Below, in pieces: positions 17,681 to 60,157 of a DNA stretch of 64,000 nt (position 1 is its first letter; each line of letters starts with the position of its first letter). The stretch comes from Priestia megaterium (GTDB lineage: Bacteria; Bacillota; Bacilli; Bacillales; Bacillaceae_H). Where the stretch lies: contig NZ_CP023317.1 of the NCBI RefSeq assembly GCF_009497655.1, forward strand, positions 1,145,501-1,209,500, written 5' to 3'. The notes beneath the pieces were generated by a model, which saw only the letters and a list, made by a program, of their open reading frames with translations, was not told where the DNA came from and did not search any database. Both the position numbers and the translations under genes were made by a program.

Positions 17681-17803
17681 ATATCGATGTAGCAACTCTA
17701 CCATCACGGAAGAGCGGTGATGGTAGAGTTGCTAGACCTAAGCGGCAGTCACCCTCCCTTGCGGGTTTGCGCCTGCCGCATAGGTGAACCTTTTTGGGCA
17801 AAT
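17681..17803 (+). repeat. TATCGATGTAG structured repeat, copy A
   Basis: ATATCGATGTAG is followed by an 18-bp perfect stem (arms 17690-17707 and 17717-17734), then CTAGACCTAA, then a second stem CCTAAGCGGCAG/CTGCCGCATAGG (17737-17748, 17773-17784, one mismatch) enclosing CCC-TTGC-GGG. The conserved tail TGAACCTTTTTGGG follows. It lies about 105 bases upstream of the SGNH-like gene at 17908, on the same strand. See the finding on this family. Confidence 0.9.
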
Positions 17804-17907
17804 TCAGTGTAGTATTTTTGTGTTTGTCTCTTTGTTTATTCTATTGAATGTAAGTTGGGTGGGCAGAATATAGTTGGTTTTTAAAAAGTGGGTAAAGGGG
17901 AGATTGA

Positions 17908-18654
17908 ATGAAGGCGATGGTTGGGGTAAATGTGGCGGCGGCTGTTTTGTGCGGGGCGGTGATGTATGCGGGGACGCAGCACTGGCAGGAGCAAACGGAA
18001 GCGCAGGCAAGTGAAGTAAAAACTGCTGTTGTACATAAAGAAAAACAGTTTTCTGATGTATCTGCTTATACAAAAAATCTTCCAGACTTTATCACAAAGC
18101 AAATCCAGTCATCTATCGTAAATAAAAAGCCTCTGACTCTTGTAATTGCCACGTCCGCAAAGGAAACAGGGTGGCCACAGCAGTTAAAAAAAGAGCTAGC
18201 AGCTACATATGGACGTGATGTATTTACGGTCAAAACACTTTCATATGGTAACGGGACAACCGATGAGCTTTTATCCTCACATATTGCCGATCAAATTGAT
18301 CAACTTCAGCCAAACATTATTCTGTTTGAAGCACCTCTTAAAAATGATTATCAGCACCTTACGCTAGATGAGACGCTTGAAAATACAGACAAGCTAATTC
18401 ATCAGCTCAAAGACTTGAAAAAGACCCTTATGATTCAGCCTTCACAGCCATATATTTCACAAACCGAGTCCTATGAAGAAGGGGTAGAAGCGATCAGGGG
18501 AGTCTCTGAAGCAAACTGGGTATATTATATGAATCACTCGCTCATTTGGCCGTTTCATTTAGGCGAGTATATCAATAAAGACAGCGGTAATTTAACGAAA
18601 AAAGGAAATGAAGTGTGGGGAGAATATGTTGTGAATTGGTTTACAGGAGAATAA
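17908..18654 (+). CDS. Membrane-anchored SGNH/GDSL-hydrolase-like protein (paralogue B)
   Basis: A 248-aa relative of the protein at 4375-5154. It has an N-terminal signal anchor rich in Ala and Val (residues 3-20), then YTKNLPDF, LTLVIATSAKETGWP, NIILFEAPLKND, LMIQPSQPYIS, YYMNHSLIWP and TKKGNEVWGEYVVNWF. All blocks are collinear with paralogue A. The nucleophile block and the C-terminal Asp-His block of SGNH esterases are again altered, so the shared oddity is a property of this subfamily rather than decay of one copy. Likely extracytoplasmic, acting on a wall or capsule glycan. Start: AAAGGGGAG 6 bases before the ATG at 17908. Confidence 0.6.
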   Translation: MKAMVGVNVAAAVLCGAVMYAGTQHWQEQTEAQASEVKTAVVHKEKQFSDVSAYTKNLPDFITKQIQSSIVNKKPLTLVIATSAKETGWPQQLKKELAATYGRDVFTVKTLSYGNGTTDELLSSHIADQIDQLQPNIILFEAPLKNDYQHLTLDETLENTDKLIHQLKDLKKTLMIQPSQPYISQTESYEEGVEAIRGVSEANWVYYMNHSLIWPFHLGEYINKDSGNLTKKGNEVWGEYVVNWFTGE

Positions 18655-18696
18655 AAAACAAGCCCTCTTTCAAAAGAAAGAGGGCTTGTTTTTTAT
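18653..18696 (+). terminator. Terminator after SGNH-like gene B
   Basis: Strong AACAAGCCCTCTTT/AAAGAGGGCTTGTT stem with T-run. Confidence 0.93.
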
Positions 18697-18838
18697 AGTT
18701 TTATAAGATTATGACTTTTCCTCGTTTTATAGTAGTAGCTTTTTGTATCTCTACACTTATAAAGCTTAAAGCCAAAGATTTCTAAAGGAGTCCAAAGTTT
18801 TTTAATGTTTACGAGTGGCATGTTAATTCTCTGTTCTG

Positions 18839-18938
18839 TTCTTTATAAAGGTCTATATATTCATTATAAAGAATAAAAGAGTGATAGTAAATACTATAAA
18901 GAACGGTTTGTTTAAAAAATTCTTTATAAAGAATTTTT
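18839..18938. promoter_or_regulatory. Four spaced TTCTTTATAAAGAA-type palindromes upstream of nasD
   Basis: The best copy is a 24-bp perfect palindrome centred at 18926 (AATTCTTTATAAAGAATT core, 18918-18935). Related copies are TTCTTTATAAAGGT (18839-18852), TTCATTATAAAGAA (18860-18873) and a half-palindromic ACTATAAAGAA (near 18890-18903). Centres are 21, 30 and 30 bp apart, close to whole helical turns. They lie 330-420 bp before nasD. I do not recognise the cognate regulator. Confidence 0.6.
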
Positions 18939-19019
18939 AGGATTTTTATTTTTGACTTGTCAACATATAGGAGTGATTTTTATCATAGCTCAGGTTATTT
19001 ATTCTTGCTAAATTAATGT

Positions 19020-19035
19020 TGTGAAAAACATCACA
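19020..19035. promoter_or_regulatory. Fnr/CRP-type box upstream of nasD
   Basis: TGTGAaaaacaTCACA is an exact match to the TGTGA-N6-TCACA consensus of Bacillus Fnr and E. coli CRP. Nitrite reduction genes are a natural Fnr target. Its centre lies about 165 bp before the proposed start of transcription, unusually far for direct activation. Confidence 0.7.
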
Positions 19036-19134
19036 AAATAAAATGCAAAGGCTGATCCAAATTAAAACGTAATTAGACCACTTATTTTTTTTGCTTGCTG
19101 TTAAAGCAATGGAATCGCATACATACCATAACTG

Positions 19135-19151
19135 TGTTAGATAACCTAACA
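19135..19151. promoter_or_regulatory. TnrA box of the nasD promoter
   Basis: TGTTAGATAACCTAACA fits TGTNA-N7-TNACA exactly and sits in the longer palindrome GTGTTAG/CTAACAC (19134-19152). Its centre is about 50 bp upstream of the proposed transcription start, the usual activator position of TnrA under nitrogen limitation. Confidence 0.82.
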
Positions 19152-19157
19152 CATAAG

Positions 19158-19186
19158 TTGAACAATTCAGAAAATTCATATATCTT
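19158..19186 (+). promoter_or_regulatory. Core promoter of the nasDEF operon
   Basis: -35 TTGAAC (19158-19163), 17-bp spacer and -10 TATCTT (19181-19186), 76 bases before the nasD start. The weak -10 suits an activator-dependent promoter. Confidence 0.65.
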
Positions 19187-19196
19187 AAATATATCT
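19178..19196. promoter_or_regulatory. NsrR-type operator overlapping the nasD -10 region
   Basis: ATATATCTTAAATATATCT matches 18 of 19 positions of the ATRTATYTTAAATATAYAT consensus recalled for Bacillus NsrR. It covers the -10 box, so the nitric-oxide-sensing repressor would block initiation directly. In B. subtilis nasD is a known NsrR target. Confidence 0.75.
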
Positions 19197-19261
19197 TTAA
19201 AGATGCATAGAAAATATATCTTTGAAACAAGCAGGTATAGACGCCAGGGGAGGAATGGAAG

Positions 19262-21676
19262 ATGCAAAAAAAGAAACTCGTATTGATTGGAAATGGAATG
19301 GCTGGAGTTCGAGCGATTGAAGAAGTATTGAAGGTTTCAAACGAAGCGTTTGAAATTACGATTTTCGGAAGCGAGCCGCATCCGAACTATAATCGTATTT
19401 TACTGTCAAAAGTGCTGCAAGGAGATACGAATGTTGAAGATATTACGCTAAACGATTGGAACTGGTATCAAGAAAACAATATTACATTATATACGGGCGA
19501 AACAGTTACTAGTATTGATTCAGTAAAAAAAGAAGTAGCGACGAACAGCGGCAGAGTAGAATCATATGATGAATTAATTTTAGCAACGGGCTCTCTTCCT
19601 TTTATTCTTCCGATTCCAGGGTCTGATAAAAAAGGAGTTACGGCTTTTCGAGATATAAAAGACACGGATGAAATGCTGCAGGCTTCTCAGCAGTATAAAA
19701 AAGCAGCGGTCATTGGAGGCGGACTGCTTGGATTAGAAGCGGCGCGCGGTCTGTTAAATCTAGGGATGGATGTATCTGTGATTCATTTAGCTCCGTATTT
19801 AATGGAACGTCAGCTCGATCCAACAGCGGGCAAATTGCTTCAAAACGAATTAGAAAAACAAGGCATGAAATTTTTGCTTGAAAAACAAACGGCGGAAATC
19901 GTCGGCGATGAGCGAGTTGAAGGATTATCTTTTAAAGACGGGACGTTTTTAGAAGCTGATTTGGTCGTGATGGCCGTTGGAATTAAGCCAAACGTTCAGC
20001 TTGCAAAAGAAGCGGGACTTAATGTAAACCGAGGAATTGTTGTGAATGACTATATGCAAACGGATATTCCAAACATCTACGCGGTTGGAGAATGTGCAGA
20101 GCATAGAGGAATGGTATACGGACTGGTGGCACCTTTGTATGAACAAGGAAAAGCATTAGCAAAAGCGATTTGCGGGGCAGAAAAAGTGCCTTATGAAGGG
20201 TCAGTTTTATCCACGCAGCTAAAAGTATCAGGTGTTGAAGTGTTTTCGGCAGGGGATTTCACGGAAGATGAAGAGAAAAAAGCGATCAAAGTGTTCGATG
20301 AACAAGACGGCATTTATAAAAAGCTTGTTTTGCGAGGCAATCAAATCGTAGGAGCCGTTCTTTTTGGAGACAGCAGCGACGGAAATCGACTGTTTTCAAT
20401 GATTCAAAAGCAAGAAGATGTATCCGATGTAGCAAAAGTGTCAATTTTACAGCCTTCTGGCGGTAGCGCGGGTGAAAGCTTAGTAGCAAGCATGAGCGCC
20501 GATGATATTATTTGCGGCTGTAACGGCGTAACAAAAGGTACGATTGTGGAAGCTATCCAAAAACAAGGATGCTCATCGGTTGATGAAATCAAAGCTTGTA
20601 CAAGTGCCTCTCGTTCTTGCGGAGGATGTAAACCGCTTGTAGCGGAAGTGCTTCAGGATACGCTTGGCGCTGACTTTGACGCTACGGCTCAAAAAGAAGC
20701 GATTTGCGGCTGTACGACTCTGTCACGAGATGAAGTTGTCGAAGAAATTAAAGCAAAAGGCCTTTCGCATACGCGTGAAGTTATGAATGTACTCGGCTGG
20801 AACAATGAAGAAGGCTGTTCGAAATGCCGCCCGGCGCTGAATTATTATTTAGGTATGGTGAATCCGACCGGATACGTTGATGAACGCGAATCACGATTTG
20901 TGAATGAACGCATGCACGCGAATATTCAAAAAGACGGCACGTACTCTGTTGTTCCTCGCATGTACGGAGGCGTCACCAACGCAGAAGATTTACGAAAAAT
21001 TGCAGATGTTGTTGATAAATATGAAATTCCGCTCGTAAAAGTGACGGGTGGTCAGCGTCTTGATTTGTTTGGTGTCAAAAAAGAAGATTTGCCTAGCGTA
21101 TGGGAAGAGTTAGATATGCCTTCTGGCTACGCGTACGGTAAGTCGCTGCGAACGGTGAAAACATGCGTCGGCGAACAGTTTTGCCGTTTTGGCACGCAGG
21201 ATTCAATGGGCGTTGGAATTGCGCTTGAGAAAAAATTTGAAGGACTATGGACGCCTCATAAAGTGAAAATGGCTGTATCTGCTTGTCCAAGAAGCTGTGC
21301 TGAGTCAGGTATTAAAGATATTGGCTTTATTGGAATTGACGGCGGCTGGGAAATTTACGTGGGCGGAAATGGAGGTACACATCTTCGCGGCGGAGATCTG
21401 TTGTATAAAGTAAAAACAGACGAAGAATTGATGGACATTACAGGAGCTTATTTGCAGTATTACCGAGAAACGGCTAATTACTTAGAGCGTACGTCTGCAT
21501 GGATTGAGCGCATGGGACTTTCGCACATTCAGTCAGTGCTTGATGACGCTGAGACGAGAAGAGAGCTGAATATGCGTATGGACGAAGCGTTATCTACGTA
21601 CCGTGATCCTTGGAAAGAAATCGTCGAAAGCAAAAAGACGAAAAAAGAGCTGTTCGAAACAGTTGTCACATCATAA
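19262..21676 (+). CDS. nasD: Nitrite reductase [NAD(P)H] large subunit
   Basis: The catalytic subunit of cytoplasmic assimilatory nitrite reductase, reducing nitrite to ammonium. The 804-aa protein has an N-terminal FAD/NAD oxidoreductase half (GNGMAGVRAIEEV; GGGLLGLEAARGL near residue 150). Two BFD-type [2Fe-2S] segments follow (CGCNGVTKGT...CGGCKP and CGCTTLSRDE...GCSKCRP, about 415-525). The C-terminal siroheme/[4Fe-4S] domain carries CVGEQFC and CPRSC. All expected cysteines are present. GGGGAGG lies 8 bases before the ATG. It opens the operon nasD-nasE-nasF-nitrite channel and is controlled by the TnrA, NsrR and Fnr sites upstream. Confidence 0.96.
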   Translation: MQKKKLVLIGNGMAGVRAIEEVLKVSNEAFEITIFGSEPHPNYNRILLSKVLQGDTNVEDITLNDWNWYQENNITLYTGETVTSIDSVKKEVATNSGRVESYDELILATGSLPFILPIPGSDKKGVTAFRDIKDTDEMLQASQQYKKAAVIGGGLLGLEAARGLLNLGMDVSVIHLAPYLMERQLDPTAGKLLQNELEKQGMKFLLEKQTAEIVGDERVEGLSFKDGTFLEADLVVMAVGIKPNVQLAKEAGLNVNRGIVVNDYMQTDIPNIYAVGECAEHRGMVYGLVAPLYEQGKALAKAICGAEKVPYEGSVLSTQLKVSGVEVFSAGDFTEDEEKKAIKVFDEQDGIYKKLVLRGNQIVGAVLFGDSSDGNRLFSMIQKQEDVSDVAKVSILQPSGGSAGESLVASMSADDIICGCNGVTKGTIVEAIQKQGCSSVDEIKACTSASRSCGGCKPLVAEVLQDTLGADFDATAQKEAICGCTTLSRDEVVEEIKAKGLSHTREVMNVLGWNNEEGCSKCRPALNYYLGMVNPTGYVDERESRFVNERMHANIQKDGTYSVVPRMYGGVTNAEDLRKIADVVDKYEIPLVKVTGGQRLDLFGVKKEDLPSVWEELDMPSGYAYGKSLRTVKTCVGEQFCRFGTQDSMGVGIALEKKFEGLWTPHKVKMAVSACPRSCAESGIKDIGFIGIDGGWEIYVGGNGGTHLRGGDLLYKVKTDEELMDITGAYLQYYRETANYLERTSAWIERMGLSHIQSVLDDAETRRELNMRMDEALSTYRDPWKEIVESKKTKKELFETVVTS

Positions 21677-21694
21677 AGCTGGGGGGAAATAAAA

Positions 21695-22021
21695 ATGGTG
21701 AATAAAAACATTACAAAAGTATGCGTAGGATCGATTCATGATTTTCCAGTAAGCCTGGGTAAAACAGTGAAAGCAAACGGAAAAGAAATTGCGGTGTTTA
21801 AGCTATCAAGCGGAAAAATCCGGGCAATTGAAAATCGCTGTCCGCATAAAGGCGGGGTGCTAAGTGAAGGAATCGTGAGCGGCGACTCGGTGTTTTGTCC
21901 GATGCACGACTGGAAAATTTGCTTGCATGACGGTAACGTACAAGAGCCTGATAGCGGATGTGTAGACACGTACGAAGCGTCTGTTGAAGGAGATTTGCTG
22001 TATCTTTTAATTGAAGAATAA
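21695..22021 (+). CDS. nasE: Nitrite reductase [NAD(P)H] small subunit, Rieske-like
   Basis: The 108-aa small subunit of the NADH-dependent nitrite reductase. It has a Rieske-type [2Fe-2S] fold with CPHKGG and CPMHDWKI carrying two Cys and two His ligands at the expected spacing (about residues 46-69). This is unusual only in that some NirD homologues lack these ligands; here they are complete. GGGGGGAA precedes the ATG, 18 bases after nasD. A stable hairpin follows before nasF. Confidence 0.94.
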
Positions 22022-22026
22022 GTACC

Positions 22027-22053
22027 GTGGCGCGTTGACTTTCAACGCGCCAC
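22027..22053 (+). other. Intra-operon hairpin between nasE and nasF
   Basis: Perfect 12-bp GC-rich stem GTGGCGCGTTGA/TCAACGCGCCAC with a 3-base loop and no T-tail (A-rich sequence follows). It is more likely an mRNA processing or stability element setting nasDE above nasF than a terminator. Confidence 0.7.
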
Positions 22054-22092
22054 AAAAATTCAAGGGGACACACTAAAAGGAGCGAAGCAAAA

Positions 22093-22863
22093 ATGAGAAC
22101 AGGAAAAGTGTACATTGTAGGAGCCGGACCAGGAGATCCAGATTTGCTAACGATAAAAGCAGCCAAATGTTTAGAAAAAGCAGACGTTATTTTATATGAC
22201 CGATTAGTGAACCCTGTTCTTCTTCAGTATGCAAAAGAAGGAACGGAACTCGTCTACTGCGGGAAAAAGCCTGGTGATCACTGCGTTTCTCAAGAGGACA
22301 TTCATGATTTACTTGTATTCTACGCAAGAAAAGGAAGCACCGTCGTGCGGTTAAAAGGCGGAGATCCGTTTATTTTCGGAAGAGGCGGGGAAGAAGCAGA
22401 AGTGCTCGTTCAGAATGGAATTCCATTTGAAGTCGTTCCGGGTATTACAGCAGGCATCGCGGCACCGGCCTATGCTGGAATTCCTGTGACCCATCGTGAG
22501 CTGAGCCGTTCGTTTGCCGTTGTGACGGGACACTGCTTGAGCGGCAAGCCGGAAAGTATTCGCTGGGAGCATTTAGCAAAAGGAGTTGATACGCTTGCGA
22601 TTTATATGGGCGTTAAAAACTTGCCTTATATTTGCCGTCAGCTTTTAGAAGCGGGGAAAAGCGCAGATACGCCGGTTGCTCTTATTGAACAAGGCACGTC
22701 TGTTTATCAGCGCACGGTTACAGGCACTCTTGGTACAATCGTAGATACGGCTGCTGAACAGCAAGTGAGTAATCCCGCGATGATTGTGATTGGTGAAGTG
22801 GTGAAGCAAGCTTCTGCTCTTTCTTGGTTTTTGGAAAAAACAGAAGAAAAAGTATGCGTCTAG
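22093..22863 (+). CDS. nasF: Uroporphyrinogen-III C-methyltransferase (SUMT)
   Basis: It makes precorrin-2 from uroporphyrinogen III with two S-adenosylmethionine, the first step to the siroheme of nitrite reductase. The 256-aa single-domain enzyme has the SUMT signature VYIVGAGPGDPDLLTIKA at the N-terminus and VVRLKGGDPFIFGRGGEEAE near residues 78-97, with PGITAGIAAPAYAGIPVTHR next. There is no fused CysG-type dehydrogenase/ferrochelatase domain, so those steps are encoded elsewhere. AAAAGGAGCG lies 9 bases before the ATG. The operon position fits B. subtilis nasF. Confidence 0.94.
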   Translation: MRTGKVYIVGAGPGDPDLLTIKAAKCLEKADVILYDRLVNPVLLQYAKEGTELVYCGKKPGDHCVSQEDIHDLLVFYARKGSTVVRLKGGDPFIFGRGGEEAEVLVQNGIPFEVVPGITAGIAAPAYAGIPVTHRELSRSFAVVTGHCLSGKPESIRWEHLAKGVDTLAIYMGVKNLPYICRQLLEAGKSADTPVALIEQGTSVYQRTVTGTLGTIVDTAAEQQVSNPAMIVIGEVVKQASALSWFLEKTEEKVCV

Positions 22864-22887
22864 TATGAATAAAAGGAGGGAACGCTT

Positions 22888-23724
22888 TTGCTTAAGAATT
22901 CACTGCAGTCAATGAATGAGTTAGCCCGTGAAAAAACGAAGCTTGTGAATGATCATTTACCGAGTTATTTGCTGTTAGCTGTACTAGCGGGTGCTTACGT
23001 GGGACTTGGCGTTATATTAGCTCTATCGGTAGGAGCGCCTTTAGCTTCTGCTTCTTTACCGGTCGTTTCTCTTGTGATGGGGTTATCTTTTGCTGTTGCT
23101 CTCCTGCTTGTTGTATTTGCAGGAGCTGAATTGTTTACGGGGAATCATATGGTTTATACGGTCAGTACGCTATCAGGAGTCACCACATGGAAAGATACGT
23201 TCAAAAACTGGACGTGGTGTTTTATCGGAAATGCGATAGGAGCATTTGGGCTTTGTTTGTTAATTACGGGAACCGGTTTGTTTAAAGGAATTGAACTCAA
23301 TCATTTACTCATGACGCTGGCAGCTAAAAAAATGAATTTGCCGGTCAGTGAATTGTTTTTTCGCGGCATCCTTTGCAACTGGCTTGTTTGTCTGGCGATT
23401 TGGACGGCTTCGCGCACTAAAAGTGATGCGGCAAAGATCATGCTTATTTTCTGGATGCTATTTGCATTTGTTGCTTCAGGATACGAGCACAGCGTGGCAA
23501 ATATGACGTTTCTTGGCCTGGCTTTACTGCTTCCGCATCCCAATACGATTTCGGCTGCTGGCCTATTTCATAATTTAATTCCTGTTACGCTCGGAAACAT
23601 CGTAGGGGGAGGCCTGTTTGTAGGAAGCATTTACTGGTTTGTGAATGCTAGGCAGCTAAAAGAAGCTAAAAAACAGCCGGCTGCTCTCTCAGCTGATTTG
23701 GATTCTGCTAAACTGTCTAAATAG
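22888..23724 (+). CDS. Formate/nitrite transporter (FNT) family channel
   Basis: A 278-aa pentameric-type channel with six hydrophobic segments. Family features are visible: GAELFTGNHMVYTV (the first FNT loop), FRGILCNWLVCLAIW (the second) and SGYEHSVANM, with the pore histidine. In this operon it most likely imports or exports nitrite (NirC role). TTG at 22888 is the best start because AAAGGAGGG ends 7 bases upstream; 24 bases separate it from nasF. Nitrite handling is inferred from context, since formate cannot be excluded. Confidence 0.9.
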   Translation: MLKNSLQSMNELAREKTKLVNDHLPSYLLLAVLAGAYVGLGVILALSVGAPLASASLPVVSLVMGLSFAVALLLVVFAGAELFTGNHMVYTVSTLSGVTTWKDTFKNWTWCFIGNAIGAFGLCLLITGTGLFKGIELNHLLMTLAAKKMNLPVSELFFRGILCNWLVCLAIWTASRTKSDAAKIMLIFWMLFAFVASGYEHSVANMTFLGLALLLPHPNTISAAGLFHNLIPVTLGNIVGGGLFVGSIYWFVNARQLKEAKKQPAALSADLDSAKLSK

Positions 23725-23796
23725 CAAAAACCGCTCTTTGTACCATATAGTCTGCTTTTAAAGCCATCATAACGGTATTTTAGAGCGGTTTTCTTC
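23725..23796 (+). terminator. Terminator of the nas operon
   Basis: AAAACCGCTCT and AGAGCGGTTTT pair over a long inner loop (with internal pairing) and are followed by TCTTCT. Confidence 0.65.
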
Positions 23797-23939
23797 TATA
23801 TAATATAAACTGCTTAAAGCGTATTCACATCTGTACGTATCGAACAAGCAGTATTGTTCTTCATTTTATAGAAACAGGAAGTCTGTGAGAATTGAATCCG
23901 GACAGATTCTGTTGAAATGAATGTGTGAGGTTGCAGATA

Positions 23940-24266
23940 TCATCGAAGAGGCAGAGGGCATCTTAGAATTTTAATGTTGTTTGGCATTTTATGCTCTTTT
24001 TGAGCTTTTTTAAAGCAGTTGTACATTGCTTTGCTGCCTAAATGATTAGCGGAGTGAATCGTAATTCGATCGGCATATAAATGATGCTTTACCATAAAAT
24101 GCACGAGCGTTAATCCATTCCGTGTCTTGCTGAGTAAATCGTGATCGAGTGACAAATGTTCAACCTCGAATGATCTTAGCAGATCAATACATTCGTCAAT
24201 CGTTTCGGCTAAAACATGACCGTCAGGGCACTTGCGATAGTCGTCTAGAAAAACATTGATTTTCAT
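23940..24266 (-). CDS. Cyclic-phosphate processing receiver-domain protein
   Basis: A 108-aa stand-alone domain resembling the cREC (cyclic-phosphate processing receiver) family, often mislabelled as a cell-division protein. Signature pieces are INVFLDDYRKCPDGH at the N-terminus, the conserved SLDHDL near residue 40, and RITIHSANHLGSKAM near residue 70. In related systems it is found with RNA repair or ligase genes; none lies nearby, and the gene stands alone between two plus-strand units. AAGGGAG lies 7 bases before the ATG. Biochemical function here is unknown. Confidence 0.7.
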   Translation of the reverse strand: MKINVFLDDYRKCPDGHVLAETIDECIDLLRSFEVEHLSLDHDLLSKTRNGLTLVHFMVKHHLYADRITIHSANHLGSKAMYNCFKKAQKEHKMPNNIKILRCPLPLR

Positions 24267-24721
24267 GACTGATTCTCCCTTCCTTGCCTTGTATTTAGTG
24301 TAACATACATAATGTCATATACCTACCTAAGTCTATTCGACACGTTTTAAGCTATTCCTTCTTAAATAGGGGTAAAAACACGAATTTTTATCATTATTTG
24401 CATATTCACGGCGAATAAACAGGAAATAAGGAAAGAGATGTCGAACGAAAAGTGAATAGATAAACAGTTTAAACTGGAAATTAACTTTTTTTATTCTGTG
24501 ATCTTTGTTTAACAAGGTCATTTAAATCCCAGATTTGACAAGGGATGGAAAAGGTTTAATGAATAAAAGATTGTGAGAAAAAAACGATAATTTGCGATTT
24601 TTTTAAAATAAATTGGAAATTTCTCTTTACGAAAAAGATGTTTGGGACGTATAATTTGATTTAAGGATTTTTTGGAACATAGTATGACAATATGACAAAA
24701 AAGAAAAGTAAGGTGAATAGA
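24267..24721 (+). promoter_or_regulatory. 455-bp intergenic region with sugar-kinase promoter
   Basis: A promoter candidate is TTTACG (24626-24631), 18-bp spacer and TATAAT (24650-24655), giving a leader of about 60 bases before the kinase start. Upstream of that the region is A/T-rich and I see no other gene or clear operator. Confidence 0.55.
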
Positions 24722-25699: not shown

Positions 25700-25930
25700 A
25701 ATGAAAAGGCTTTATCTCTTCTTATTTTCAATCAGCAGAGGCGTCCGTTTCTGCTGATTGCAGATCACATAAGAGGAAAAAGCGAGCTGCGGAGCAAGAA
25801 GAAAAAAATTTTTTCTGTTTTTAAAAAATAATCAAAAAAATTTCTAGCTAAATAATAAATGTTCGTGTTAGTATAATACGAGCAGCAGGAAATAGCGGTT
25901 TTACCACCAATTATGAAAACGTTATATATT

Positions 25931-26062
25931 TATCGATGTAGAAAATTTAATAGGATTAAAGAGCGATCCTATTAAATTTTCTAGACCTAAGCGTCTGTTG
26001 CCCCCCTTGCGGGGTAGGCATCAGACGCTTAGGTGAACCTTTGGGGGAATATTCGAGGGGGA
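25931..26062 (+). repeat. TATCGATGTAG structured repeat, copy B
   Basis: The most complete copy. TATCGATGTAG; an 18-bp A/T-rich stem (arms 25939-25956 and 25966-25983); CTAGACCTAA; a 12-bp stem CCTAAGCGTCTG/CAGACGCTTAGG (25986-25997, 26022-26033) around CCCC-TTGC-GGGG (26003-26014); then the tail GTGAACCTTTGGGGGAATAT and TCGAGGGG. It sits in the leader region of the GRP transporter. The remaining parts of the 25700-26152 gap show only a lone TATAAT (25872-25877). Confidence 0.92.
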
Positions 26063-26152
26063 ACAAGCGTGTAGCCCTTGGTAAAAGAAAAGCAGCAGGT
26101 CGTTACATACGATGTACATAGATTAGAAATAGGAAAGTAGGTTAAGAGAAAG

Positions 26153-27016
26153 ATGGATATTTTGCTAGGTGTTCTTCCTTCCGTTGCGTGGGGAAGCATG
26201 ATTTTAGTTAGTATGAAGATGGGCGGTGGACCTTACAGTCAAACGCTTGGAACAATTATTGGAGCTTTGATTCTTTCATTTGTTCAGTTTATGATTGTGC
26301 AGCCGGTGTTAACGCCAACGCTCGTTATTGTCGGAATTGTTTCAGGTTTGTTCTGGTCAGTAGGTCAAAGCAATCAGTTTAAAAGTGTTCCATACCTTGG
26401 GGTTTCAAAGTCAATGCCGATTTCAACGGGTATGCAATTAGTATCAACAGCTCTTTTTGGTGTTATTGTATTTAAAGAATGGTCAACGCTTCAAACGATT
26501 GTGCTTGGATCTATTGCGATTCTTTTAATACTAGCAGGCGTTGTGCTTTCTTCATTAGACGGTAAAAAAGAAGGAGCACAAGGGACTCCAGGACAAACGA
26601 AAAAAGGAGTCATTACTCTTATCATTTCAAGTCTTGGATTCTTAGTTTACGTCGTTATCGCACGTATTTTCAACGTAGACGCATGGGCAGCACTATTCCC
26701 GCAAGCAATTGGTATGTTAATTGGCGGTTTAATCATTACATACAAACATAAGCCATTTAACAAATATACGATTCGTAATATCTTACCAGGTCTAATCTGG
26801 GCATCTGGAAATATGTTCTTATTCTTATCTCAATCAAGACTAGGCGTAGCAACAAGCTTTTCATTATCGCAAATGGGTATTGTTATTTCTATCTTTGGCG
26901 GTATTGTATTCTTGGGAGAAAAGAAAACAAAGCGTCAATTATTCTATGTATCTCTTGCGAGTGTACTGATTATTTCAGGCGGTATCTGCATAGGCCTCGC
27001 AAAAGCCCACGCTTAA
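26153..27016 (+). CDS. glcU: GRP-family sugar uptake protein (GlcU-like)
   Basis: A 287-aa permease of the drug/metabolite superfamily with ten predicted membrane segments. GRP proteins import glucose or ribose in Gram-positives; B. megaterium and B. subtilis GlcU are the characterised members. Family stretches are LPSVAWGSMILVSMKMGGGP at the N-terminus, VGQSNQFKSVPYLGVSKSMP near residue 65 and the internal duplicate GLIWASGNMFLFLSQSRLGV. The usual partner gene glucose dehydrogenase is absent, and a PfkB kinase lies upstream, so ribose or fructose are alternatives. The gene is bracketed by two TATCGATGTAG repeats, the second beginning on the base after its stop codon. Confidence 0.85.
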   Translation: MDILLGVLPSVAWGSMILVSMKMGGGPYSQTLGTIIGALILSFVQFMIVQPVLTPTLVIVGIVSGLFWSVGQSNQFKSVPYLGVSKSMPISTGMQLVSTALFGVIVFKEWSTLQTIVLGSIAILLILAGVVLSSLDGKKEGAQGTPGQTKKGVITLIISSLGFLVYVVIARIFNVDAWAALFPQAIGMLIGGLIITYKHKPFNKYTIRNILPGLIWASGNMFLFLSQSRLGVATSFSLSQMGIVISIFGGIVFLGEKKTKRQLFYVSLASVLIISGGICIGLAKAHA

Positions 27017-27120
27017 TATATCGATGTAGAAAAACCCCCATGGCTAGAGTGCAGCCATGGGGGTTTTTCTAGACCTAAGGTTTTGAGGCACCCCTTGCGG
27101 GGTAGCCTCAAAACCTTAGT
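27017..27120 (+). repeat. TATCGATGTAG structured repeat, copy C, 3' tail missing
   Basis: Starts immediately after the transporter stop. TATCGATGTAG (27019-27029); a 19-bp perfect stem (27027-27045 with 27053-27071); the linker; a 15-bp perfect stem CCTAAGGTTTTGAGG/CCTCAAAACCTTAG(T) around CCCC-TTGC-GGGG. The conserved tail GTGAACCTTTG is replaced by unrelated sequence. The stem-1 sequence differs entirely from the other copies. Confidence 0.92.
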
Positions 27121-27284
27121 TAAAGTCAAATTCAAAGTCAAATCCATAGTGCTCTTGGAGATTTCCAAGCTGTACGTTTGTGTGAGTGTTTCTCGTTCTT
27201 AAGTCTGATTGTTTTTCATTCTTTGTTAGGAAGCTGTTTGGTGTGAAATGGCTTATAGTAGTAGGAAAGGATGGAGGAGAGGCT

Positions 27285-27731
27285 ATGATTAAGAGTATTT
27301 ATGAGACGCATGTGAAGGTTCGGAATTTGGAGGATTCGATTGAGTTTTATAGACGTCTTGGGCTGACGTTTGTTCATAAAATTGAAGAGCGGCGCTGTGC
27401 TTTTTTCTTTGTTGGTGAACAAAAGCAGATGCTCGGGCTTTGGGAAACCGATGAAAAAGAGTTGAAAAGAAGTCATTTTGCTTTTGGAATTGAAGCAGCA
27501 GATATTCATGAAGCGTTAACGTGGCTGCGTTCAAAAGGCATTGAGCCGGAAGAAACGTCGTTTGGAAAGCCTCAAACAGAGCCAATTGTTCATACGTGGA
27601 TGCCGGCAGCTTGCGTGTATTTTAATGACCCTGACGGTAACAGCTTGGAGTTAATTACGCTTTTGAATGATGAGCCTGTCGTATCTAAGGATTTTCCGTA
27701 TTTAAGTGAATGGAACATGAAACAGCAGTGA
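27285..27731 (+). CDS. VOC-family (glyoxalase/bleomycin-resistance fold) protein
   Basis: A 148-aa metal-binding dioxygenase/lyase-fold protein. Visible features: YETHVKVRNLEDSIEFYRRL at the N-terminus (first ligand His), a middle RSHFAFGIE (second ligand site) and the C-terminal VYFNDPDGNSLELITLL (Glu ligand). ATG 27285 has GGAGGAGAGG 5 bases upstream; the longer frame from 27186 lacks a site. The substrate is unknown; it may detoxify an electrophile or antibiotic. Confidence 0.8.
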   Translation: MIKSIYETHVKVRNLEDSIEFYRRLGLTFVHKIEERRCAFFFVGEQKQMLGLWETDEKELKRSHFAFGIEAADIHEALTWLRSKGIEPEETSFGKPQTEPIVHTWMPAACVYFNDPDGNSLELITLLNDEPVVSKDFPYLSEWNMKQQ

Positions 27732-27748
27732 AAACTGCTGTTTTTTTG
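27722..27748 (+). terminator. Terminator overlapping the end of the VOC gene
   Basis: ACAGCAGTgaaaACTGCTGT with seven T; the stem includes the last codons and the stop. Confidence 0.9.
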
Positions 27749-27766
27749 TGTATCATAAACGTAAGA

Positions 27767-27795
27767 TTGACATAATAATAAACATATAATATATT
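27767..27795 (+). promoter_or_regulatory. Sigma-A promoter of the DUF2087 gene
   Basis: TTGACA (27767-27772), 17-bp spacer, TATATT (27790-27795), 43 bases before the ATG. Confidence 0.8.
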
Positions 27796-27837
27796 TGTTT
27801 ATAAATTAATAAACAAAATAGAAAGGTGTCTATTTAA

Positions 27838-28971
27838 ATGGTAAACGACTTGTTTTGGGAATCATCTTTTGAAGATATGAAGAAAGGGTACGGGGAAAGC
27901 GAAGATCACTACCACTGCTTACTGTGCGGTGAAAGTATTGAAAAAGGCATTATTTATCCGGTGGAAGGTGTTTTTTATGAAGCAAAACGCTATATGAAGC
28001 TTCATATTGAACAGCAGCACAGATCTGTATTTCATCATTTAATAGGGCTAGATAAAGAGGTAACCGGTCTTTCTGATCATCAAAAAAATTTAGTGAAGTT
28101 TTTTAAAGAAGGAAAAAGCGATAGTGATATTCAAAAAGAAATGGGAATCGGCAGTTCATCCACCATTCGGAATCACCGCTTTACGTTAAAGAAAAAAGAG
28201 CGTCAGGCAAAAGTGTTTTTAACGCTGATGGAACTGTTAAATGAAGGGGAAGAAGAGAAGGCGGTACCCGTAACAAATACGGCGCCTAAAAGAAGTCAGC
28301 GCTACAGCGTTAGTGATGAAGAACGTGAAAAAATTTTAGCGAAGAATTTTCCGCAAGGTTTAAACGGACCGCTTCGCACTTTTCATTTGCAAGAAAAACA
28401 CCGTCTTGTTGTTCTTGAAGAATTAAGCGGGCATTTTGAGTTTGGCGCAACGTATACCGAAAAAGAAGTAAATGATAGGTTAACACCTTTTTATGACGAT
28501 TATGCGGTGCTGCGACGCTATTTAATTGAGTACGGGTTCTTAGAGCGCAGCGCAGACGGAAGCAGCTACTGGAGAAAAGGAGAGACAGAGATGAGTACTG
28601 ATTCGAAAGACTACAAAAAACAAATGAAGCAGCTAGCGAAAGAAGTAAAAACAGAAGGCGGCGTGTATCAAATTAAAAACCTTCACAACGATAAGATTTA
28701 TATTGGCTCTACGCCTAACATCAAAACGTTAAACGGCGTAAAGTTCACGTTAAAGACGAACACTCATCAAAATAAAGAGCTTCAAGATGAGTGGAATACG
28801 TATGGTGCGGATGCTTTTTCAATTGAGATGCTGGAAACGATTAAAAGAGAAGAAGAAAAAGCACTTTCAAAAAAGGATTTGCTAAAACTAGAAGCGAAAT
28901 GGTTAGAGAAGCTGCAGCCTTACGGCGAAAAAGGCTATCATTCGCCGAAAGCTGATACAAAGGAGAAATAG
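27838..28971 (+). CDS. DUF2087 regulator-like protein with C-terminal GIY-YIG domain
   Basis: A 377-aa multidomain protein. N-terminal part (1-60): a CxxC plus HxxxxH zinc-finger-like unit (HYHCLLCGESI, KLHIEQQH). Next (about 75-135): a LuxR-like helix-turn-helix (GLSDHQKNLVKFFKEGKSDS). Next (about 160-245): DUF2087 with RLVVLEELSGHFEFGATYTE and DYAVLRRYLIEYGFLERSAD. C-terminal (about 268-355): GIY-YIG-like GGVYQIKNLHNDKIYIGST and ELQDEWNTYGADAFSIEMLE. The catalytic Arg expected after the YIG motif is not evident, so the nuclease may be inactive or use another residue. It may be a DNA-binding sensor. It runs into the MATE gene two bases later, implying co-expression. Confidence 0.78.
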   Translation: MVNDLFWESSFEDMKKGYGESEDHYHCLLCGESIEKGIIYPVEGVFYEAKRYMKLHIEQQHRSVFHHLIGLDKEVTGLSDHQKNLVKFFKEGKSDSDIQKEMGIGSSSTIRNHRFTLKKKERQAKVFLTLMELLNEGEEEKAVPVTNTAPKRSQRYSVSDEEREKILAKNFPQGLNGPLRTFHLQEKHRLVVLEELSGHFEFGATYTEKEVNDRLTPFYDDYAVLRRYLIEYGFLERSADGSSYWRKGETEMSTDSKDYKKQMKQLAKEVKTEGGVYQIKNLHNDKIYIGSTPNIKTLNGVKFTLKTNTHQNKELQDEWNTYGADAFSIEMLETIKREEEKALSKKDLLKLEAKWLEKLQPYGEKGYHSPKADTKEK

Positions 28972-28973
28972 GT

Positions 28974-30356
28974 GTGAAGAATCAAGATGTGAAAAGTGAA
29001 GTAGTGGAATCAGAAAAATCCGTCAGTAAGCTGATGCTTGTGTTTTTGATTCCGCTCATGTTAAGTAACGCCATGCAGTCCGTTGGGCAGCTGGCAGGAA
29101 GTATTATTGTCGGAAGAGCGCTTGGAGTTGATGCGTTAGCCGCTATTTCCGCTTTTTTTCCTCTGTTTTTTCTGCTCGTGTCGTTTTCGATTGGAATTGG
29201 GTCAGGAAGTTCCATTTTAATCGGGCAAGCGTACGGGGCACAAAATGAAAAACGAGTGAAAGAAATTATCGGTACCACGCTCACGTTTACCTTTTTAGTC
29301 GGAATTGTGCTTGCTGTTTTGGGAAGCATATTTGCTCCGGAGATTCTTCGGATTATGGGAACGCCGGCTAATATTATTGACGTAACGGTTCACTATGCGC
29401 GCATTTTGTTTGTGGCAATTCCTGTTTTGTTTTTATACTTTGTTTATACGACGTTTATGCGCGGAACCGGAGACTCTAAAACGCCTTTTTACTTTTTAGT
29501 TGTGAGTACGGTCTTAAACCTCATTTTTCTTCCGATTTTAATTTTTGGATGGATCGGAGTGCCAAAGCTTGGCGTGTACGGCGCTGCATACGCAACGGTG
29601 TTTTCAACCGTATTAACGTTCATTATTATGATCATTTATTTACGCAAGAAAAATCATCCGTTAAAGTTTGACGCCTCTATTTCATTAAAAATGGACGGAA
29701 CGCTGTTAAAGCTGCTTATGCGTTTAGGGATTCCCGCGAGTATCAATATGATTTTAGTTTCTCTTTCTGAAATTGCGGTTATTACGTTTGTAAACGGATT
29801 TGGCTCAGACGCTACAGCGGCGTACGGAGCGGTGAACCAAGTAGCAAGCTATGTACAAATGCCGGCAATCAGCTTAGGAATTGCGGTTTCTATTTTTGCG
29901 GCGCAGTCGATTGGCGCCAATAAATTTGAGCGTTTAAAAGAAGTGATTCGCTCTGGAATTATGCTGAATTACGTTATTGGCAGCGTGTTGATTTTACTTA
30001 TTTATCTCTTTTCCAATCAAATATTAGCACTGTTTTTAACAAATCAGCACACGCTCCATATTGCCGAAGAGCTGTTAGTGATAACGCTTTGGAGCTATTT
30101 GATTTTCGGCCATGCGCAAATTATTACCGCTACGATGCGAGCAAGCGGTACGGTGCTGTGGCCTACGGTATTTAGCATTATGGCGATTTGGTGTGTGGAA
30201 GTACCCGTAGCCTACGTGTTATCGCAGTTTACGTCTCTTGAAATCAAAGGGATTTGGATCGGATATCCAGCGGCGTTTGTTGTCAGCTTAATCCTGCAGT
30301 ACAGCTATTATCAATTTGTATGGAAGAAAAAGAAAATTGAACGTCTTGTCGGATAA
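28974..30356 (+). CDS. MATE-family multidrug efflux transporter
   Basis: A 460-aa sodium- or proton-driven exporter with 12 predicted membrane segments in two homologous halves (LMLVFLIPLMLSNAMQSVGQ opens the first, LLKLLMRLGIPASINMILVS the second). It starts with GTG 28974 behind AAAGGAGAAATAG, only two bases after the DUF2087 stop, so both share one mRNA. The upstream protein could be its regulator. Substrates cannot be read from sequence. Confidence 0.9.
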   Translation: MKNQDVKSEVVESEKSVSKLMLVFLIPLMLSNAMQSVGQLAGSIIVGRALGVDALAAISAFFPLFFLLVSFSIGIGSGSSILIGQAYGAQNEKRVKEIIGTTLTFTFLVGIVLAVLGSIFAPEILRIMGTPANIIDVTVHYARILFVAIPVLFLYFVYTTFMRGTGDSKTPFYFLVVSTVLNLIFLPILIFGWIGVPKLGVYGAAYATVFSTVLTFIIMIIYLRKKNHPLKFDASISLKMDGTLLKLLMRLGIPASINMILVSLSEIAVITFVNGFGSDATAAYGAVNQVASYVQMPAISLGIAVSIFAAQSIGANKFERLKEVIRSGIMLNYVIGSVLILLIYLFSNQILALFLTNQHTLHIAEELLVITLWSYLIFGHAQIITATMRASGTVLWPTVFSIMAIWCVEVPVAYVLSQFTSLEIKGIWIGYPAAFVVSLILQYSYYQFVWKKKKIERLVG

Positions 30357-30383
30357 AAAACGAGCGGAAACGCTCGTTTTTTA
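30355..30383 (+). terminator. Terminator after the MATE gene
   Basis: AAAAAACGAGCGgaaaCGCTCGTTTTTT. Confidence 0.93.
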
Positions 30384-30466
30384 TTTTTTCTAATTAAAAC
30401 ACCCTTAGCAAAGAGTTTTAATAGGATAGTGCATATAACTTTTTAATGAAAAGAGGGTATGAGACT

Positions 30467-31111
30467 ATGAGTAAATCTGGATTTGTGCCGGATAATTCAA
30501 ATATTAAAAAAAGCTCAGGAACGCCTAATCTGTCAGTGAACTATAAGCAAAACGTCCTGTTCAAACGAAATGATCAAAATATAGCGTATCAACTAACCTC
30601 AACTCAGCTGCCGCCAATGCTCGGAGGTGCTTTTGTTGATTTATATATGACGAAAGGGCATATGAGAGAACCGCACTGGCATCCAAATGCTTGGGAATTA
30701 GATGTCGTCGTTTCAGGTGAAGTGCAGGTGTCTGTCTTGGACCCTGATACAAGCAGCATGCACAATTACCGAATAAAAGAAGGCGAAGTTGTTTTTATAC
30801 CGATGGGCTGGTGGCATTGGATTGAACCTCTATCGGAAGAAGCGCATCTGCATCTCTTTTTTAACAATGATCAATTTGAGTCTACAGAAGGATCCGACGT
30901 GCTGCGCTTAACGCCTCCTATTGTGTTTCAAAAAGCATACGGAGTAAGCGCAAACGAAGTAGCAGAAGCCGTCGCTCCGATTACCGATACGGTTGTGATT
31001 GGACCGCCTAATAATCATTCTTTTTATCAAAAGAGCTATCTCAAAGATGAACGGGATGAAAGAATTGTGGTTAAAATAAATGAAAAAGTGGTGCCTGCTG
31101 AAGATAAGTAG
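30467..31111 (+). CDS. Single-domain cupin protein (oxalate-decarboxylase-like)
   Basis: A 214-aa cytoplasmic cupin. Motif 1 fits G(X)5HXH(X)4E(X)6G exactly in GHMREPHWHPNAWELDVVVS-G, and motif 2 is GEVVFIPMGWWHW, so the three His and one Glu metal ligands are complete. Oxalate decarboxylases and their single-domain relatives share this pattern, but a true decarboxylase has two cupin domains. ATG 30467 follows AGAGGG at 9 bases; the ATG at 30446 lacks a site. The gene ends two bases before a family-2 repeat. Confidence 0.78.
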   Translation: MSKSGFVPDNSNIKKSSGTPNLSVNYKQNVLFKRNDQNIAYQLTSTQLPPMLGGAFVDLYMTKGHMREPHWHPNAWELDVVVSGEVQVSVLDPDTSSMHNYRIKEGEVVFIPMGWWHWIEPLSEEAHLHLFFNNDQFESTEGSDVLRLTPPIVFQKAYGVSANEVAEAVAPITDTVVIGPPNNHSFYQKSYLKDERDERIVVKINEKVVPAEDK

Positions 31112-31112
31112 C

Positions 31113-31449
31113 AAAAAAAGAGGCTGGGATAAAAGTCTTTTAGGCGAAGTGAAAAACGAACCATGAATCTTTAATTCACGGTTCGTTTTCCTGTTATAGT
31201 GAACGTAGATTTCATTTGTTTCATTCCTTCTAGCAGTTGATTGGAGGGCAAGGCGAAGACTCCTGCGGGAAAAGCGGAACAGATGAGACCCCGCAGGAGC
31301 GCAAGCGACGAGGAGGCTCAGCGGCCGCCCGCGGAAAGCGAAGTCTTGCACGGAAATCAACTGCGGTGTCACAAGCAGTTCAGCTTATGTATCTCCTTTG
31401 GTCGTCTTTAGATTGGTTTCATTTTGTTATGTCCCAGCCTCTTTTTCGT
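31113..31449 (+). repeat. GAGGCTGGGA inverted-repeat element, copy 1 (complete)
   Basis: A 335-bp MITE-like element with perfect 15-bp terminal inverted repeats AAAAAGAGGCTGGGA (31115-31129) and TCCCAGCCTCTTTTT (31432-31446). Inside are a terminator-like hairpin AAACGAACC.../...GGTTCGTTTT (about 31155-31192), a long-range pair GCAGTTGATT/AATCAACTGC (31233-31242, 31355-31364) and a GC-rich stem CTCCTGCGGG/CCCGCAGGAG (31260-31269, 31290-31299). It fills the whole gap between the convergent cupin and LCP-like genes. There is no coding capacity; short frames within it are spurious. Confidence 0.9.
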
Positions 31450-31458
31450 GAAGCGTTT

Positions 31459-32289
31459 TTATAAAAACAGCTCGTTGCGTTCTAAGTGCTTATACAGCCG
31501 CGTTGTGACTTGTTTTTGATTCCATTCGTTTTGCGGAAACTGCTGCTTGTCTACGTGAGCAACGGCCAGCTTGTAGGTTTTTTGAATCCGTTTGATATCA
31601 TTAAAGGTTGCGTTGGTTTCAATGTGATCAGCGAGCGTAAATACAAGAGAATGCAGCTTTGTAACATTGGGAATCGTAGCTCCTTGGCTGAAAATGGCTT
31701 TCGCGACGGACAGCTGTCTTTCATGCGCCGTAAAGACGTCTTGTTCATTCCGCTCCTTTAAATAAACAAGTGCTTCTTTTCCGTTAAGGCGAATCGCTCC
31801 TTTTGGAAAAACAATGTTGCTGTGTTCAAAAGCACGTTTGTTTGTGACGATAATGCCGCCTAATTTATCTACAGCATCGACGACTGACTGCTGATCCATT
31901 TTGACATAATAATCAACAGGAAGCTTTGCATATGCTTCGACTTTTTTTACAACAGCATTCATATTTCCTTGATGATAAATGGTTCGCAGTGTTTCATTGC
32001 CGAGCTGAGTTGACCCTGGCAAGTGGGTCATTTTTATTGATTCATGCTGCTTATTAACAGTCATATACACAAATGACGTATTTTGATGGTTTTCTTGAAT
32101 TAAAAGCAGGGAAAACGGTTGTCCTTTTTTTAAATTGACGTGTGTTTTGTTACCATGCTCAAGCGGTACATACGTTTGATCAACGGCAGCTTTCACCGTA
32201 TGATAGCCTGCAAACGTGATGCTGACAAAACTGACGAGTAAAAATAGTACGAGACCGCCAATCCACTCTTTTTTTGCTTTGCTGCTCAT
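31459..32289 (-). CDS. Degenerate LCP-family protein
   Basis: A 276-aa membrane-anchored protein (membrane segment about residues 9-31) that aligns along its length with the LCP ligase at 3239-4195, keeping [47 protein letters not shown] and [11 protein letters not shown]. The catalytic positions are lost: GVDxR is IQENH, RSDS is NTSF, IPRDT is LPGST, and the late RxxxR run is eroded. It is thus unlikely to transfer glycopolymers and may act as a binding or regulatory partner. The ATG at 32289 has AAAGGTGAG upstream; an upstream frame to 32352 has no site. Confidence 0.78.
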
Positions 32290-32365
32290 CGTCTCACCTT
32301 TTTCTATCGAATTCGTTCGTAGTATTGCCATCTTAAAAGGGGAGTAAAACAAATGAGCGCTATTT

Positions 32366-32737
32366 TTATTGGATATCTTGCTTTTTCTTGGCGTAGGTTT
32401 TGAGCTCTGTAATTAAAATTGCTTGTTCTTCCACATTGTTAAACGCTTCAATGCCATAAAGGTATTCGGTGTGCCGTTTTTCTTTCCACACGCAAAGTCC
32501 GGTAATATGGATCGGTTTTTCATTTAAATAAAAGCTGATTTTTAGCTGAATTTGATGATTGAAAATAGGTAAATCAAGCGGCGTAATTATTTTGATTCCT
32601 TTTGGTGAAAGGTCGATAACAGACAAAGGACCTGGCTTAGAATCGATTTCTTTGTTGTCGTATTTAGCAATGGAAAACGTTCCAACAATGGGAGTCTCAA
32701 ATAAAAAGCGAAACGGTTCTTCACGTTTAAAATGCAT
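32366..32737 (-). CDS. PilZ-domain protein with altered arginine motif
   Basis: A 123-aa single PilZ domain, a fold that binds cyclic di-GMP. The DxSxxG motif is intact (VIDLSPKGIKI, about residues 41-51). The N-terminal arginine motif, normally R-R-E-x-F-R, reads R-E-E-P-F-R (residues 5-10), so the RxxxR pair is broken and binding may be weak or lost. It lies upstream of the degenerate LCP gene in the same direction (77-base gap) and may be co-transcribed, suggesting a shared role at the cell surface. Confidence 0.75.
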   Translation of the reverse strand: MHFKREEPFRFLFETPIVGTFSIAKYDNKEIDSKPGPLSVIDLSPKGIKIITPLDLPIFNHQIQLKISFYLNEKPIHITGLCVWKEKRHTEYLYGIEAFNNVEEQAILITELKTYAKKKQDIQ

Positions 32738-32835
32738 GTATCATCAGTCCTTTTCGTAATCTAAGTTTGTTAAGTAAGTATTCGATGAAAGTCTAAAAAT
32801 TCCTACACGTTTTTCCCCATCCCCCATATAATGTT

Positions 32836-32965
32836 TATCGATGTAGAATATCTACCATGGCCACAGACCGGCCATGGTAGATATTCTAGACCTAATCGTA
32901 GGTCACCCCCCTTGCGGGGTTGGTGGCCTACGATTAGGTGGACCTTTGTGGGAGTATTCGAGAGG
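32836..32965 (+). repeat. TATCGATGTAG structured repeat, copy D
   Basis: TATCGATGTAG (32836-32846); a 19-bp perfect stem (32844-32862 with 32870-32888); linker CTAGACCTAA; a 12-bp perfect stem CCTAATCGTAGG/CCTACGATTAGG (32891-32902, 32927-32938) around CCCC-TTGC-GGGG; tail TGGACCTTTGTGGGAGTATT and CGAGAGG. It lies between the divergent PilZ and corA units; a 60-aa frame across it is spurious. Confidence 0.92.
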
Positions 32966-33323: not shown

Positions 33324-33351
33324 TGCCTCAATGATGTGAGGTGAAAAATCA

Positions 33352-41615: not shown

Positions 41616-41672
41616 TTAAGTTCTCTCCTTTATGTAAACCTCCGCATCTAAAAAAGACGAGGAGGCTATAAA

Positions 41673-59938: not shown

Positions 59939-60092
59939 AAGCTGCACTTCCTTTCTTTACATGGTCATTACAACTTTTATAGCGTAACTACTCATCTTAA
60001 GTGTTTGCTATCTTGCTTATAGGTATACGTATCCACATTTAAACAAAATCAAACATTTTCTTGATTATATATATCTTTCTTTTAAAACACAA

Positions 60093-60157
60093 TATATCGA
60101 TTGATGTAGAAGCTTTGACATGTCCAAAGACCTGATAGAGGGGGATTTTTGAGGGAA
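60093..60157 (+). repeat. TATCGATGTAG repeat remnant, copy E
   Basis: TATCGAttGATGTAGAAG followed by a short imperfect stem CTTTGacatgtCCAAAG, then ACCTgatagaGGGGGAttt ttGAGGG, which matches the 3' tail of copies B and D. Stem 2 and the CCCCTTGCGGGG hairpin are missing. A decayed or internally deleted copy in the gap between two minus-strand genes (59939-60228); otherwise that gap holds only the next terminator. Confidence 0.65.

Follow-up and report, generated by a model that had tools for sequence, protein, structure and literature searches.

What keeps the two arms of a palindrome matched while their sequence changes freely? This question is raised by a two-hairpin repeat that recurs in one orientation in a 64,000-nucleotide stretch of Priestia megaterium DNA (contig NZ_CP023317.1, positions 1,145,501 to 1,209,500; hereafter the window), which an earlier note on this DNA had taken for a selected and possibly mobile RNA. 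Our analysis points instead to a non-autonomous palindromic repeat of about 205 bp that is mobile as DNA and owes the upkeep of its hairpins to events at the DNA level, and we consider this explanation probable. Its observed part comprises dispersal, shared ends, empty sites, paired changes in the arms, loop inversions and frequent loss of hairpins. By comparison with described systems, the element would be similar in kind to bacterial miniature inverted-repeat transposable elements (MITEs) and REP-like elements, and may be new among them.

The earlier note had described four intact same-strand copies with a fixed order of parts, and all four were recovered. Two of its start positions, 25931 and 32836, were exact, and the other two (17681 and 27017) were off by one or two bases from 17682 and 27019. 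Stem 1 is indeed perfect in every copy (18, 18, 19 and 19 bp) and has a different sequence in each. The 7-nucleotide loop assigned to all copies is common to the four only if loop-adjacent G.G (copy 1) and T.G (copy 2) are allowed, and the two-hairpin architecture stands with a longer stem 2 than had been described, since CCTAA/TTAGG belongs to it. Copy 3 has diverged 3′ of stem 2. A fifth copy, given as a remnant at 60093, is by eye a plausible 5′ fragment and was not among the covariance-model hits of the genome search even at E up to 10. From 5′ to 3′, the element consists of a 5′ motif (RATCGAT.TAG), hairpin 1 (15-23 bp, mostly with an AAAGARC-like 7-nucleotide loop), a GA joint and hairpin 2 (usually capped CCC-TTNC-GGG). 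A GTGAACCTTTGAGGG-like motif follows, and the 3′ end is formed by a rapidly evolving domain, which terminates in TATATA in genus g3 and in which no consensus helix was found. Chance can be excluded as the source of the repeat, because the pattern TATCGATGTAG-N30..60-CTAGACCTAA had five exact matches in the genome and its reversed control pattern none.

A covariance model built from five copies of the same genome gave 19 hits in the 5.24-Mb genome, of which eight are strong copies (81-141 bits) and three are weak (25-53 bits); the other eight echo these palindromes on the opposite strand. With a threshold of E up to 0.001, the model matched 12 of the 16 genomes searched in the host's taxonomic family (f1), with 139 (G011), 62 (G014), 27 (G006), 16, 15, 15, 14, 13, 12, 11, 7 and 1 matches per genome, opposite-strand echoes included; G002, G009, G010 and G013 had no match at this threshold. 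The repeats thus form a dispersed family, as had been proposed, present in Priestia and two further genera. Among 397 genomes drawn from the order, searched with strict filters and eight candidates scored per genome, 11 were matched at 1e-6, every one inside f1, and among the genomes searched the repeat is confined to this one taxonomic family. Phage records gave no match, nor did an exact-pattern scan of named genomes, in which records close to the window's own were possibly left out; among 72,556 plasmid records there was a single match, from P. megaterium. That no known Rfam class is involved was confirmed: none of 4227 families matched in the window at the gathering threshold, and a search with three elements at E up to 1 yielded hits only far below gathering. 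No description of the family was found in the literature searched, which mostly did not extend to subscription papers and does not establish absence from print.

The element is mobile, because a neighbouring species (G003) has 206 extra bases including a copy where the window is contiguous at 41666|41667; this empty-site comparison supports the mobility considered in the earlier note. At the same site G008 holds the same copy minus hairpin 2. Further filled and empty sites were found within genus g3, with a copy in G014 where G011 reads TTATTAATA|GAAACC and a diverged copy in G011 where G014 reads CTATAATAG. Insertion sites are TA-rich. In these two g3 genomes, both flagged with 8-9% contamination, 25 copies at unrelated sites were aligned, and most have both edges in common; L187, L199, L207 and L216 are diverged or gapped toward the 3′ end. 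Same-strand end pairs at most 250 bp apart in G011 (n = 50) fall into three size classes, 23 spanning 191-206 bp (commonest 204), 21 spanning 140-154 bp (commonest 152) and six spanning 98-111 bp, the shorter classes being, where read, copies without hairpin 2 or without both hairpins. Copies of about 152 bp, with hairpin 2 missing, nearly equal the full copies in number. Hairpins are also lost in place at resident sites with varied end points, and at the L171 site relatives hold a hairpin-deleted remnant, not an empty site.

The covariation of the stems is real. In the first alignment of five copies from the same genome, 22 of 31 pairs had changed on both sides, 97.4% of cells pair, and the covariation values were reached by none of 500 shuffles. 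Orthologous copies were then compared in eight Priestia groups and two groups of genus g4. Summed over seven Priestia groups (group s8, whose arms differ by a paired indel, and both g4 groups were excluded, as was the deleted copy L053 of c4), 928 pair comparisons, which are not independent of each other, contained 93 pairs changed on both arms and 26 changed on one; if sites had changed independently at the same rate, about 12 and 188 would be expected, respectively. Between G000 and G007, eight of the 16 pairs in group s7 differ on both arms, and the 200-bp upstream flank is 97% identical.

As evidence for a selected RNA this covariation is weak, and the mismatches bear on the matter. The mismatch count used 95 of the 112 matches to the model, with the echoes on the opposite strand and some weak hits left out, and two short stems as well as identical stems were further dropped. 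The 34 distinct Priestia stems (476 core pairs) contain 10 G-T, 7 A-C and 3 other mismatches; the 45 distinct g3 stems (630 core pairs) contain 10 G-T, 31 A-C and 2 others, counts inflated by a burst subfamily with one common imperfect stem; and three g4 stems (42 core pairs) contain 2 G-T and no A-C. Two mismatches of copy 2 in G001 fall on pairs that read A-T in the window. One is a C.T, where the plasmid record L052 has C-G; the other is an A.C, where G008 and G003 have G-C. Should both be intermediates, neither is a G-U. Mismatches thus show no G-U preference, and compensatory change via tolerated G-U pairs is not what was observed.

The loops carry a second signature. AAAGARC-like in most copies, the loop is inverted in one genome in three of the eight Priestia orthologue groups and in neither of the two g4 groups. 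The G000 copy L169 has GCTCTTT, and the one orthologue read (G008) has AAAGTGC, its reverse complement with one difference. GCTCTTT also stands in the G001 copy L179, where G000, G008 and G003 have AAAGAGC, AAAGTGC and AAAAAGC. The third case is the G001 copy L167:18770 with GGTCTTT, where P. aryabhattai has AAAGACC and the window, L164, L166 and L052 have ACAGACC. According to PMC8604942 and PMC8794818, polymerase template switching between inverted repeats homogenises the arms and inverts the spacer. Both were found here at orthologous sites, and because they are the published signature of template switching, the hairpins are read as DNA-level features; selection on RNA structure is disfavoured because it leaves the loop inversions unexplained. 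Paired arm changes and full loop inversions were likewise reported by Monttinen and Loytynoja 2022 and Abraham and Hazkani-Covo 2021. Those studies concern rRNA and yeast genes, with loop inversion plus compensatory change very rare, whereas here inversion with arm change is repeated at orthologous copies of one bacterial mobile family.

Divergence rates were determined between Priestia orthologues, leaving out the shortened copies of c1 and c4. Stem-1 arms differ pairwise by 13.4%, about 3.6 times as fast as the flanks (3.9% and 3.6%). Loop 1 (9-nucleotide window, inversions included) differs by 19.6%, stem 2 by 12.4%, the 3′ motif by 10.2% and the 3′ domain by 16.0%, the last figure possibly inflated by indel alignment. 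The 5′ motif (3.0%) and the joint (3.3%) evolve at the background rate, whereas the body of the element changes several times faster than the DNA around it. Loop and 3′ motif are recognisable family-wide, yet not slow at orthologous sites. The argument of the earlier note that preserved pairing with free sequence marks a selected RNA is therefore unsupported, given the rapid divergence of the arms, the inverted loops and the nature of the mismatches. A mutational mechanism acting on DNA is indicated, because the helices covary strongly, G-U pairs are not preferred and loops are inverted between orthologues. The matching arms most likely result from DNA copying that transfers changes from one arm to the other, not from selection on RNA shape.

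Under this explanation, a transposase acting in trans would move the element into TA-rich sites, where resident palindromes would extrude during replication. A polymerase may then switch template between the arms, whereby a mutation in one arm would be copied to the other, or the loop would be flipped. Template switching of this kind would keep the stems perfect while their sequence drifts. A link between intactness and replication strand is suggestive only: 53 of 67 model-hit copies lie on the presumed leading strand vs 44 of 71 5′ ends without a hit (p 0.04), a comparison that rests on an assumed terminus position.

Element copies, remnant and empty insertion site in the window (window coordinates; 3′ domain limits by analogy)
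Feature	Position (strand)	Stem 1	Stem 2	Other parts and surroundings	Relatives
Copy 1	17682..17806 (+)	17690-17707/17717-17734	~17737-17748/17773-17784	5′ motif TATCGATG; 3′ motif; 3′ domain weakly conserved, to ~17880, ends shortly before GDSL-hydrolase-like gene at 17908	Orthologues in G008, G003, G007; shortened in G001 and plasmid record L052
Copy 2	25931..26056 (+)	25939-25956/25966-25983	~25985-26002/26017-26034	3′ domain to ~26130; between carbohydrate kinase gene and sugar transporter gene	Orthologues in G008, G003, G001, L052; P. aryabhattai B8W22 without 25949-26034
Copy 3	27019..27135 (+)	27027-27045/27053-27071	within 27074-27130	Start directly 3′ of sugar transporter stop codon (gene end 27016)	Orthologues in G008, G003, G001, G007, L052
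Copy 4	32836..32961 (+)	32844-32862/32870-32888	~32891-32902/32927-32938	3′ domain to ~33040; upstream of corA	Orthologues in G008, G003, L052; loop inverted in G001 (L167:18770); shortened in G007
5′ remnant	60091..60150 (+)			Motif, one arm, AAAGACC loop; judged by eye	
Empty insertion site	41666..41667			Window contiguous	Filled in G003, element on − strand

Half of the strong copies of the genome (four of eight) lie within 15.3 kb (17682-32961) of the 5.03-Mb chromosome, all in a single orientation, and related species have largely retained this cluster. Priestia aryabhattai B8W22 has a protein with 100% identity over 287 residues to the product of 26153-27013. The comK-nirBD-corA region of the window also occurs on pPmC-129-3, a plasmid of another P. 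megaterium strain (L052, 16982-41114), with element copies 2-4 intact and copy 1 shortened.

The family could also be a selected structured RNA that is mobile as well and keeps its helices by compensatory evolution, for example a leader or intercistronic element and perhaps a messenger stabiliser or a substrate of RNase III; overall we regard this as unlikely. The predicted folds are very stable (z −9.26 for L166, −3.59 for L185), as follows automatically from a perfect palindrome, and covariation exceeded all 500 shuffles. The position relative to genes also speaks for an RNA. Among 94 classified copies (of 95), the element shares its strand with both neighbouring genes in 52 cases and with neither in 13, and with the downstream gene in 73; high-scoring copies are over-represented in this set, and orthologues enter it repeatedly. 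Of 60 copies with the upstream gene on their own strand, 42 start at most 10 nucleotides from the end of that gene (17 of 26 in g3), as against none of 34 with it on the opposite strand, and 28 of the 73 end 20-80 nucleotides upstream of the same-strand gene. The closeness to stop codons is striking; these adjacency counts rest on crude open reading frame calls and a fixed element length, with no random-placement control. Many copies are probably transcribed, because they tend to sit sense-oriented in intergenic regions, and an RNA role is possible given their orientation and position. Against RNA selection stand the mismatches without G-U preference, the flipped loops and the frequent loss of hairpins at resident sites. 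A loop-to-tail pseudoknot is not supported, since loop-tail pairing did not covary (4.13 observed vs 4.16 shuffled, 90 copies). Also, intact structure adds little to the orientation bias, because same-strand and opposite neighbours stand at 23 to 11 of 48 in g3 alone and at 36 to 20 of 84 among G011 copies selected through their 5′ ends, most of them without a listed model hit. Only gene orientations were used from the latter set, whose hairpin classifier misjudged known intact copies (e.g. L183); the classifier's own tests of intact copies against the rest were not significant. Terminator function is not supported either: shuffling gave on average 14.0 terminator-like sites and 17500-33400 has 16, of which the one within copy 1 has a 6-pair stem.

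A further alternative, a derivative of a single-stranded-DNA transposon of the IS200/IS605 or REP/RAYT kind, whose Y1 transposase recognises hairpins, appears doubtful to us. It would suit the 5′ hairpin, which is subterminal and lies a little way in from the end, what by eye may be a weak hairpin at the right end (CTCGAT...GTCGAG), and TA-rich insertion sites without clear target duplication. Y1_Tnp (PF01797) matches occur in the copy-bearing genomes G006, G011, G012, G014 and G015, the last four belonging to g3 and g4, and G014, G012 and G015 have one Y1_Tnp gene each with an open frame of 199-207 amino acids, a size seen in RAYTs. The association with a Y1 transposase is nevertheless not supported, as Y1_Tnp was unmatched in seven copy-bearing Priestia genomes (G000, G001, G003, G004, G005, G007, G008), was matched in G010, a genome without copies, and had no element copy, as judged by the covariance model, near the 12 loci examined of the 21 matches listed. 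The GTAG-REP/RAYT system (PMC3733652) is alike in that its repeats are palindromic, with stems that vary but stay complementary, often lie at stop codons and are presumed moved in trans. Most REP stems there measure 6-9 bp (12-13 in GTAG-24); GTAG is unpaired, and G-T pairs are frequent. The present element has two longer stems and rare G-T pairs. In Priestia part of the 5′ GTAG is paired, its TAG with CTA, and most g3 copies have TTTAG; GTAG-REP membership was rejected on stem length, tag and the associated RAYT (Y1) transposase. Membership in the bcr1 family (group A repeats) of Bacillus cereus is very improbable. Like bcr1, which measures a comparable 147-167 bp (PMC2267715), the element is intergenic, mobile and foldable, and TTTAT, which flanks bcr1 at both ends, stands at the 5′ end of copies 2, 4 and L169, three of the five aligned copies from the same genome, in which no consistent 3′ TTTAT was found. 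According to PMC6542083, PMC3446304 and PMC2267715, bcr1-bcr3 are likewise short intergenic foldable repeats with mobile-element behaviour, often within transcripts. However, the first of these sources describes bcr repeats as absent outside the B. cereus group, and the host here is Priestia, with copies in two other genera of its family; the plasmid records contained only the single P. megaterium match, though bcr1 is reported on plasmids too; and nothing outside f1 was matched among the 397 genomes, a sample in which presence of the B. cereus group is not established. The element is set apart from bcr1-bcr3 by description, not by sequence. With MITEs (Correia/NEMIS, RUP, ERIC) it shares small size, non-autonomy, dispersal and TA-rich ends (partly after PMC3733652), and in being non-autonomous and dispersed with empty sites it corresponds to this class. 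Unlike in MITEs, there are no clear terminal inverted repeats, and the palindromes are internal hairpins; TATATA stands at both ends in g3, and one fold has weak imperfect end-to-end pairing. Finally, the working part may be the perfect, freely changing palindromes themselves, any sequence serving if the arms match and the extruded DNA hairpin being the recognised form, a proposal that we find rather improbable.

Several points weigh against a mobile DNA repeat with hairpins maintained by replication. Sense orientation and adjacency to stop codons are not predicted by DNA drift alone, and the background rate of the 5′ motif and joint inside a fast-changing body may reflect some selection. Stem perfection is not universal, as the burst subfamily of g3 has imperfect stems. 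No mobilising enzyme was identified, and no autonomous version was recognised in G011 among the listed end matches (104 to the 5′ end pattern, of which 100 were listed, and 91 to the 3′ end); in seven same-strand end pairs 0.8-3 kb apart, each 5′ end belongs by eye to a separate short copy. No clear target duplication was seen at the sites read, and about eight bases beside the 3′ junction of the window's empty site are unexplained. Four sites (L199 and L188 vs G014) gave no clean empty site, and neither did the L182 site, which was not alignable.

Some further repeats were noticed. Two ~70-bp forms in G011 (L302:1425 and L333:1467), which have inverted loops, look by eye as if the 5′ ends of two subfamilies had been fused head to head at hairpin 1. 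A second repeat of ~240-340 bp with inverted ends (AAAAAGAGGCTGGGA...) lies at 31114-31450 and 45852-46093 of the window. G008 lacks the 31.1-kb copy and has a ~335-bp copy between window positions 27717 and 27742 that is absent from the window, and because of these presence/absence differences the second repeat also looks mobile. Two more dispersed families, with many copies in G014, were seen at L188:4339-4456 and 5308-5516 in G011.

Covariation commonly counts as the strongest proof that an RNA is functional, and the family described here may be a natural counter-example. It could provide controls for tests of covariation and a means to measure bacterial template switching. If the palindrome is indeed the working part, template switching at replication would be used as a repair system that keeps copies competent, and the dispersed copies would be natural recorders of template switching in a bacterial chromosome. 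For Priestia megaterium, a common laboratory and production host, the analysis adds a mobile repeat that was not found described in the literature searched.

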